A stretch of 48,161 nt of DNA from Planctomycetes bacterium GWF2_41_51. Its GTDB lineage: Bacteria; Planctomycetota; Phycisphaerae; Sedimentisphaerales; UBA12454. The notes under the pieces were generated by a model. That model saw only the letters and a list, made by a program, of their open reading frames with translations. It was not told where the DNA came from and searched no databases. Within the stretch, counting starts at the first letter, position 1. Each line of letters opens with the position of its first letter. Both the position numbers and the translations under genes were made by a program. The stretch lies in the NCBI GenBank assembly GCA_001825665.1, contig MHXZ01000088.1, positions 1 to 48,161 of the forward strand, written 5' to 3'. Positions 28,262-30,457 of the stretch are shown here, piece by piece.

Positions 28262-30457
28262 ATGAATCTTTATGGCAGAATGTCAATCCTTGTTTTTATT
28301 TGTTTAGTCCTGGCAAGCCCCTCCTTTGTTCAGGCAAAAACAAATTTTTCTAAAATTGAAAAGAAGAAAAATATGAAAATTCAAAATGAAGATGGTTATA
28401 ACTTATGGCTGCGTTATCCAAAAATTGATAACCCAAAATTACTGGATCAATATCGCTCTTCAATCAAAAGCGTCTGCGTTCTCGGAGGCAGCAAAACTTT
28501 CGATATCATCAGAAACGAATTCGACCTTGCCCTGCCCGCAATGCTCGACAAATCTATCCCGATTACTTCCGACAAACCACAAGACAATTCAATCATCGCC
28601 GCCACCATCGCAACATTGAAAAAGTTTAGCCCCCGCACCTGTGGCGGGGGTTCAGAGCCGCGACCGTCAGGGAGCGGTAACGTTTTCGAATTATCAGATA
28701 TTCCCAATATCTCTTCTCTCGGCGACGAAGGTTTTCTGATTCGCAGCCGTGAACAAGACGGCAAAAAACTAATTATCATCACCGCAAATTCCGACATCGC
28801 CGTCTTAACCGGAACATTCCATTTTCTAAGCCTCCTGCAAACCCATCAATCGATAGAAAATCTAAATATCAAAAGCATCCCGAAAATCAAACATCGCATC
28901 TTAAGCCACTGGGACAACCTCGACGGCTCAATCGAACGAGGCTATGCCGGCAAATCCCTCTGGCAATGGAACCAGTTACCAAAAAAAATCGACCCCCGCT
29001 ATTACGATTACGGCCGCGCATGTGCTTCCATCGGCATAAACGGCACAATCCTCAACAACGTCAACGACCAGACCCAAAGCCTCTCCAGCGAATACATAAC
29101 CAAAACCGCCGCCCTCGCCGATTGTTTACGCCCTTACGGAGTAAAAGTTTTTCTTACCGCTGTTTTCAGCGCACCAGTCCAGCTTGGAAACTTACCTACC
29201 AGCGACCCGCGAGACGCTGCCGTCGCAAATTGGTGGAAACAAAAAACTGATGAAATCTACAGACAGATTCCCGACTTCGGCGGATTCCAGGTAAAAGCAA
29301 GCTCCGAAGGCGCCCCCGGCCCGCACGATGAAGGCGCAAACCACAATGATGGCGCAAATATGATGGCCGATGCCCTCCATCCTCACGGCGGTATCATCCT
29401 CTGGCGTGCGTTCGTTTATGATACAACTATTGATTCCGACAGATTCAAATGTGCCTACAAGGAATTTGTCCCGCTCGATGGCAGTTTCAAATCCGATATT
29501 TTCGTGCAGGTCAAAAACGGCCCCATCGATTTCCAGCCGCGCGAACCGGTCAATCCGCTTTTCGGCTCAATGCTCAAAACTCCGCTCGCTCTCGAACTGC
29601 AAATAACACAGGAATACCTCGGCCACGCAAATCATCTCGTCTATCTATCGCCGATGTGGAAAGAAACCCTCGACTGGGACACTTACGCTAATGGGCCAAG
29701 TTCGACCGTCTCGAAAATTATCGATGGTTCGCTCTATAAATTCGAAGATTCCGCAATAGTCGCCGTCACAAACACCGGCTCAGACCGAAACTGGACCGGC
29801 CATCATATCGCACAGGCAAACTGGTTTGCCTTCGGCCGCTTGGCATGGAACTACAGATTGAGCGACGATGAAATTTGCGATCAGTGGGTAAAAATGACAT
29901 TCTCGAACGACCCCGCCTTTGTCGAACCCGTAAAAAAAATGATGCTCGGCTCATGGGAGGCCTGCATCAATTATATGACTCCGCTCGGTCTGCACCATAT
30001 AATGCAGGAAGGCTTCCATTACGGCCCTCAGCCCGATTTAAACACTGCCCCGCGCCCCGACTGGAATTCCACTTATTACCACCGCGCCGATGCAAACGGC
30101 CTTGGCTTCGACCGCACCAAAACTGGCAGCAATGCCGTCGCTCAATATCGCTCCCCGCTAAAAGAGCAATTTGAAAACATCGATACCTGCCCCGAAAAAT
30201 TCCTGCTCTGGTTCCACCACGTCCCATGGAACAGAAAAATGAAATCAGGCCGAACTCTCTGGCAGGAGCTTGAAAAACATTATGCAGATGGTGTACAATA
30301 TACCGCCGAAATGGAAAGCACATGGAAATCTCTCGAAGGAAAAATCGACCCGCAGAGATTTAAAGATGTTGAAGAAAAATTAAAAATACAGCATAATGAT
30401 GCAAAACATTGGCGTGATGTTTGCTTAAAATATTTTAGCCAGTTTGTGCAGAAATAA
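28262..30457 (+). CDS. Alpha-glucuronidase, GH67, with translated palindromic insert
   Basis: Removes 4-O-methyl-glucuronic acid from the non-reducing end of xylo-oligosaccharides. 731 residues from ATG 28262, which has AAGAG upstream and gives a signal peptide of about 28 residues (ending FVQA). GH67 landmarks: KASSEGAPGPHDEGANHNDG, DALHPHGGIILWRAFVYD, VQVKNGPIDFQPREP and LELQITQEYLG, which hold the Glu and Asp catalytic carboxylates of the family. Residues 123-139 come from a palindromic DNA element and do not look like GH67; they sit before LSDIPNISSLGDEGFLI in the N-terminal domain. No xylanase or sugar transporter gene is adjacent. Confidence 0.93.
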   Translation: MNLYGRMSILVFICLVLASPSFVQAKTNFSKIEKKKNMKIQNEDGYNLWLRYPKIDNPKLLDQYRSSIKSVCVLGGSKTFDIIRNEFDLALPAMLDKSIPITSDKPQDNSIIAATIATLKKFSPRTCGGGSEPRPSGSGNVFELSDIPNISSLGDEGFLIRSREQDGKKLIIITANSDIAVLTGTFHFLSLLQTHQSIENLNIKSIPKIKHRILSHWDNLDGSIERGYAGKSLWQWNQLPKKIDPRYYDYGRACASIGINGTILNNVNDQTQSLSSEYITKTAALADCLRPYGVKVFLTAVFSAPVQLGNLPTSDPRDAAVANWWKQKTDEIYRQIPDFGGFQVKASSEGAPGPHDEGANHNDGANMMADALHPHGGIILWRAFVYDTTIDSDRFKCAYKEFVPLDGSFKSDIFVQVKNGPIDFQPREPVNPLFGSMLKTPLALELQITQEYLGHANHLVYLSPMWKETLDWDTYANGPSSTVSKIIDGSLYKFEDSAIVAVTNTGSDRNWTGHHIAQANWFAFGRLAWNYRLSDDEICDQWVKMTFSNDPAFVEPVKKMMLGSWEACINYMTPLGLHHIMQEGFHYGPQPDLNTAPRPDWNSTYYHRADANGLGFDRTKTGSNAVAQYRSPLKEQFENIDTCPEKFLLWFHHVPWNRKMKSGRTLWQELEKHYADGVQYTAEMESTWKSLEGKIDPQRFKDVEEKLKIQHNDAKHWRDVCLKYFSQFVQK
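28628..28678 (+). repeat. Double-hairpin palindromic repeat inside the GH67 gene
   Basis: 51 bases, 17 codons, in frame. First hairpin: CCCCCGC (28630-28636), 7-base loop, GCGGGGG (28644-28650). Second: CCGC (28658-28661), GA, CC, loop GTCA, GG, GA, GCGG (28674-28677), with matching GA/GA mismatches. It is translated as SPRTCGGGSEPRPSGSG. The composition is far more GC-rich than the surrounding gene. It resembles the repetitive palindromic elements known to insert in frame in other bacteria. Confidence 0.8.

Follow-up and report, generated by a model that had tools for sequence, protein, structure and literature searches.

REP elements inserted in frame into genes are known in Rickettsia and, within the PVC superphylum, in Opitutus terrae (PMC3733652). 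A second related system is that of the class 3 TnpA_Y1 transposases. The account by Quentin et al. (2018, PMC6006769) places these enzymes, together with hairpins carrying a CnGA foot, in Planctomycetes, Acidobacteria and Proteobacteria, and gives about 600 copies of the hairpins in Solibacter usitatus. The locus described here lies in a GH67 α-glucuronidase gene of Planctomycetes bacterium GWF2_41_51. The window is the whole stretch of DNA analysed, the 48,161 nucleotides of contig MHXZ01000088.1, and positions refer to it unless another contig is named.

An in-frame insertion in the GH67 gene

The GH67 protein begins with a probable signal peptide (residues 1–25), and residues 43–727 align to the structure of the Cellvibrio enzyme (1gqi). 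The reading frame stays open across residues 122–140 (Table 1). Between the [AG]T and xGDEG/xGEEG motifs there are 38 residues in this protein and 19 in seven full-length homologues of the same class, a count that leaves aside an eighth homologue (L086) whose sequence lacks the region just upstream. In the alignment to 1gqi, the gap at this place is exactly 19 residues. Since the protein has 19 extra residues relative to both the class homologues and 1gqi, the insert measures 57 bp. The original prediction of a translated, in-frame palindromic insertion that is missing from GH67 homologues thus holds, with its length revised from 51 bp. The insert is preceded in the 1gqi alignment by a hydrophobic stretch (SLVIGT) and followed by the segment SPLIASL, and it probably occupies a strand-to-helix surface loop after a β strand of the N-terminal domain.

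Table 1. Positions of the GH67 insert, its parts and in-frame copies in other genes
Feature	Position	Strand	Details
GH67 α-glucuronidase gene with insertion	28262–30457	+	ATG 28262, from which residues of the insert are numbered; Pfam Glyco_hydro_67N/M/C; 1gqi alignment
In-frame insertion, 57 bp	28625–28681	+	residues 122–140, FSPRTCGGGSEPRPSGSGN; ends uncertain by about 1–2 bases
H1 palindrome	28625–28650	+	model R2 match 28624–28653, 47.7 bits; covariation
H1 foot	28625–28629		TTTAG
H1 stem	28630–28636 / 28644–28650		CCCCCGC/GCGGGGG
H1 loop	28637–28643		ACCTGTG, conserved
H2 palindrome	28653–28677	+	model R1 match 28651–28681, 49.8 bits; covariation; conserved mismatch
H2 foot	28653–28656		CAGA, fits CnGA; followed by G
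H2 stems and loop	28658–28677		CCGC-GA-CC-GTCA-GG-GA-GCGG; outer stem CCGC/GCGG, inner stem CC/GG
H2 tandem mismatch	28662–28663 / 28672–28673		GA/GA
H2 loop	28666–28669		GTCA
PfkB sugar kinase	C52		GVSEPRPLGSGN; GWF2_41_51 genome
SMC hinge	C104:14128–14158		H2 copy, QSRDSNGAGK; L267 / L020; GWF2_41_51 genome
MetH-MTHFR			QSRDSQRSNPVDNGAG; 15-residue gap against T. maritima MetH (1q7m); GWF2_41_51 genome
α/β hydrolase			LPIAYAQGSE; GWF2_41_51 genome
ParB-like protein			LPLPDGRGSD; GWF2_41_51 genome
ParA	C72		C-terminal tail; GWF2_41_51 genome
GH88 enzyme			N-terminus; GWF2_41_51 genome
UvrB frame	L133:6745–7998	+	H2 copy; Phycisphaerales genome
MetH	L180		another genome
MeaB GTPase and glyoxalase-type domains	L201:1361–2920	+	one open frame bridged by an inverted H2 pair

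Among the family genomes searched this is the sole GH67 gene, and none of 12 family relatives contains a full-length GH67 match. With 4.83 Mb in 138 contigs and 3.77% contamination, the genome has roughly double the size of most others in its genus. Its size and the absence of GH67 from those 12 relatives hint at gene gain or a mixed bin. At the GH67 gene itself, which is intact and alignable to both ends, there is no sign of an assembly artefact; in a bin of this kind other contigs may be chimeric.

Hairpins, copies and transposases

Both stems lie where they were originally placed, at 28630–28650 and 28658–28677. In the 81 distinct copies of H2, 96.7% of pair cells are paired and 63 cells show double changes, compared with a shuffled mean of 12; sliding the pairing partner abolishes this signal. 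For H1, 98.2% of cells are paired, with 25 double changes against 4.8 after shuffling. The alignments were fitted to these same structures and the double-change counts are biased in that direction, but an effect of this size, together with the slide control, points to real pairing in the stems. It is thus structure and not sequence that the stems conserve, and in H2 the constant features are the unpaired ones. H2 keeps a C[AC]GA foot (C in 67, G in 79 and A in 79 of the 81 copies, the second position being A or C), a GTNA loop and the symmetric GA/GA mismatch noticed earlier, which is conserved in 77–80 copies. H1 keeps a TTA[GA] foot and an ACCNGTG loop. In some H2 copies (L282, C29:35303; L285, C29:32035; C114:15832; C10:40215) a second palindrome (TCCTTCGTAGCTTTAGCGAAGTAGGA-like) is nested in the loop, an arrangement that resembles the insertion of one palindrome at the tip of another.

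A BLASTN search with the 91-bp GH67 region found 40 places in the GWF2_41_51 genome, and copies at unrelated loci reach 97%–100% identity to the GH67 H1 and H2. With covariance models (E<0.02) the genome contains 31 H2 matches and about 37 H1 matches, the H1 set including partial ones; each palindrome has about 30 dispersed copies. At the base composition of the genome 7e-8 exact H2 matches are expected, and the repeat is therefore not a product of chance. Both outcomes that were to refute the original prediction, residues shared by homologues and a lack of further copies, are thus contradicted. In the GH67 copy both stems are intact and the score is near the top of the H2 family, from which we judge the copy to be probably young.

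H2 extends well beyond this genome. Of 13 genomes in the family 12 carry it, and exact matches to its 23-base core (GAGCCGCGACCGTNAGGGAGCGG), up to 92 per genome, were found in 12 of the 392 genomes sampled from the phylum; the reversed pattern gave none. Named records with the exact 23-mer, often as inverted pairs, belong to Planctomycetota, Acidobacteriota, Anaerolineae/Ardenticatenia (Chloroflexota), Legionella and other proteobacteria. The earlier suggestion of similar residues in proteins of several PVC genomes is borne out by this distribution, which reaches outside PVC. Identity across phyla suggests either inter-phylum spread or strong constraint by the transposase. In a gammaproteobacterial genome and one other record (L112, L136 and L191), the AAGTTTTAAAATTT-like spacer of the H2 pairs is almost the same throughout, and each pair makes up a compact inverted unit some 60 bp long.

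The original prediction treated the insert as a single element. It is instead a composite of two different REP-type palindromes side by side, each with its own transposase clade. H1 directly followed by H2 is found at GH67 (C88), PfkB (C52), C108:104–164, C53:41926 and the 3′ end of parA (C72), and H1-H2 or H2-H1 pairs occur in five other family genomes (loci L350, L352, L353, L354 and L361).

Seven Y1_Tnp genes are encoded in the GWF2_41_51 genome. The TnpA on contig C109 lies between H2-type arrays on both sides, that on C102 lies between H1 arrays and that on C84 is accompanied by an H1-like hairpin. The C109 protein has the motifs NHIH (HUH), WT and YVKNGQ (Y----Q type). An H2-like copy with at most five substitutions is present at 24 of 54 loci with a C109-type TnpA, compared with 1 of 54 for a reversed-pattern control. 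These copies are mostly 14–350 bp from the gene, often inverted on both sides, and the loci include Legionella shakespearei (L242), another Legionella (L243), a gammaproteobacterium (L239) and a Bryobacterales genome (L244). Of the 12 genomes that contain the H2 23-mer, 7 encode a C109-type TnpA (E<1e-30), compared with 18 of 380 others (Fisher p about 1e-6, uncorrected for kinship); the remaining 5, several of which are incomplete, show none at E 1e-6. Elsewhere in the phylum, TTAGCC hairpins of the H1 type flank genes of the C102 type. In a tree of 75 TnpA rows, a single branch (support 99/79) separates H1-flanked from H2-flanked proteins, and none of 500 shuffles scored as low. Rows on the H1 side end in Y[IV]xxH where that part is covered, as opposed to Y----Q in the C109 type. 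These proteins score below NCBIfam cut-offs; by flanking copies, motif and tree, each kind of palindrome is tied to its own clade of Y1 HUH transposases (TnpA_REP/RAYT).

Two further loci carry related genes. At L158:3161–7189 (+), a class 3-type TnpA is contained in an open frame of 1343 codons, which spans several H2 copies that differ in frame and lie in either orientation. At L046 (C63:32492–32815 of the GWF2_41_51 genome), a longer RAYT-like gene of 232 aa stands beside inverted TTAGTATGGTGTCCCCGGATTT-type repeats; these contain GGGGACAC, which fits the GGGGWSAS motif of 'TIRYT' elements (PMC3733652).

In-frame copies, mechanism and alternatives

Copies are read in frame in several other genes (Table 1). 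Only Pfam-supported cases are given, since surveying named contigs for open frames without such support is unreliable where genomes are GC-rich. The UvrB of Rickettsia conorii also carries palindromic insertions (PMC3733652), and the frame bridged at L201 may be a gene fusion brought about by REPs. Clear genes contain only a minority of the copies; these are read forward and in reverse and in different frames, a mixture more readily explained by tolerance than by selection for a peptide.

Very likely, the insert is a non-autonomous two-hairpin REP element, a substrate of two Y1 HUH endonucleases encoded elsewhere in the genome, that landed in the GH67 gene and was translated and tolerated. H1, with its TTTAG foot, and H2, with its CnGA foot, would each be a substrate of one of two small enzymes of the TnpA_REP/RAYT type acting in trans. 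The hairpins may form in single-stranded DNA, for example on the lagging-strand template, and be recognised through foot, mismatch and loop; the catalytic tyrosine would then cut the hairpin DNA, which would be rejoined at a new site. On the model of IS200/IS605 and TnpA_REP (PMC6006769; PMC8266576), hairpin cutting and transposition are putative activities of this TnpA class. One composite H1-H2 copy would have entered the GH67 gene, and as the unit is exactly 57 bp and free of stops in that frame it would be translated as a 19-residue Gly/Pro/Ser-rich insertion. Its persistence would reflect tolerance by the enzyme, the insertion being most likely neutral; in general, insertions into genes would survive if the frame is kept, no stop is introduced and a tolerant loop is hit. 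Against a mobile REP stand the five genomes with the 23-mer but no C109-type TnpA at E 1e-6, the TnpA scores under the NCBIfam cut-offs, and the SMC copy, which is flanked by a 17-bp direct repeat (GAAATTCCGCAATCAGC), a feature not predicted by simple IS200-type transposition. This repeat may mark a repair or template-switch event.

That the peptide is instead a selected part of the protein, such as a linker or a binding or processing site, with the element domesticated as coding sequence, is suggested by several copies in intact genes that share one reading frame: SEPRPSGSGN in GH67, SEPRPLGSGN in PfkB and SEPRP at the end of the ParA frame. The hosts are unrelated, however (enzymes, SMC, ParA/B), and have taken up the element at different places; copies are read in three coding frames and lie in both orientations, most of them are outside clear genes, and GH67 homologues work without the insert. 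Domestication is therefore improbable. That the hairpins act as RNA, changing translation or stability or serving as a cis-regulatory motif, with the DNA copies spreading for that reason, is suggested by the predicted fold of 28625–28682 (TTTAGCCCCCGCACCTGTGGCGGGGGTTCAGAGCCGCGACCGTCAGGGAGCGGTAACG; −31.3 kcal/mol, z-score −3.2, with 2 of 200 shuffles folding as well) and by the conserved tandem GA mismatch, which had originally been likened to an RNA motif. The mismatch is real, but it is likelier to be part of an ssDNA hairpin recognised by a transposase, and such recognition explains the conservation. No Rfam covariance model matched the insert near a gathering score, the copies lie in either orientation with respect to genes, and they flank transposase genes, which makes an RNA role improbable. 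There is scarcely any probability left for an old, lineage-specific GH67 loop in which the palindromes are coincidental. It gains from this being the single GH67 gene in the family genomes searched, yet H1 and H2 occur at many unrelated loci at up to 97%–100% identity, exact H2 is found in other phyla, and the copy number and the composite copies elsewhere refute it.

Starting from the mobile two-hairpin element, one may go further and suppose that H1-H2 composites move as single units and need both HUH transposases, one of the TTAG-foot clade and one of class 3. They would then be a two-transposase minimal mobile element, and the in-frame units would repeatedly supply housekeeping and secreted proteins of several phyla with ready-made linkers. 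We regard this extension as rather unlikely. With the in-frame copies in SMC, MetH, PfkB, UvrB and GH67, the frequency at which a mobile palindrome turns into protein sequence can be tested, and annotators should be aware that stretches like SEPRPSGSG-, QSRDxxGAG- and PLPDGRGS- can be transposon-derived.

Relation to described systems

H2 and its transposase match the class 3 TnpA_Y1 system. H2 shares the CnGA foot (C[AC]GA, with CAGA in GH67), flanks a Y1 gene with HUH, W[TA] (as WT) and Y----Q motifs, is present in high copy number (about 31 in its own genome at E<0.02, up to 92 exact copies elsewhere in the phylum) and occurs in Planctomycetota, Acidobacteriota and Proteobacteria. In contrast to the present copies, neither in-frame insertion into host genes nor pairing with a hairpin of a second foot is reported for class 3 hairpins in the available part of PMC6006769. 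This poorly studied class gains a clear substrate model, consisting of foot, tandem GA mismatch, GTNA loop and covarying stems. Alongside it stands a sister system whose foot is TTA[GA], and both are found fused in one element. H1 qualifies as REP/RAYT in the broad sense, as it has a conserved foot, flanks a Y1 HUH transposase and is dispersed in the genome. A 'TTAG' foot is not mentioned in the text of PMC6006769; the H1 system and its sister transposase clade look new, no description having been found in the open literature. Likewise, a search of the open literature found neither the H2 sequence nor its peptides in any paper.

The GTAG-type REPs and RAYTs (Di Nocera et al., 2013, PMC3733652) have in common with H1 and H2 the short palindrome and its 5′ foot, the arrangement of copies in clusters or inverted, and the linked tyrosine transposase, and in Opitutus terrae, also of the PVC superphylum, they are likewise in frame in housekeeping genes. 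Their foot, GTAG or GTGG at 0–2 nt from the stem, differs from those found here (TTTAG, that is TTA[GA], for H1 and C[AC]GA for H2). Their transposases belong to other clades, and here two kinds form a composite. The likeness to Rickettsia palindromic elements drawn in the original prediction stands for the multi-copy, in-frame behaviour, with insertion into unrelated genes (GH67, PfkB, SMC, MetH-MTHFR, the hydrolase and others), and goes no further: the terminal CGTC tag is at neither end of the GH67 insert, and CGTC repeats are reported without transposase association (PMC3733652), whereas each palindrome kind here is linked to an HUH-Y1 clade. REPINs and BIMEs likewise consist of paired REPs at short, regular spacing, and inverted H2 pairs are common in other genomes. 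In REPINs and BIMEs, the pair is formed by inverted copies of one REP, whereas in GH67 the two joined REPs are unlike and stand in direct orientation. In-frame insertion of a REP is itself an event already known, and what look like new variants are the H1-H2 composite and the TTA[GA]-foot system.
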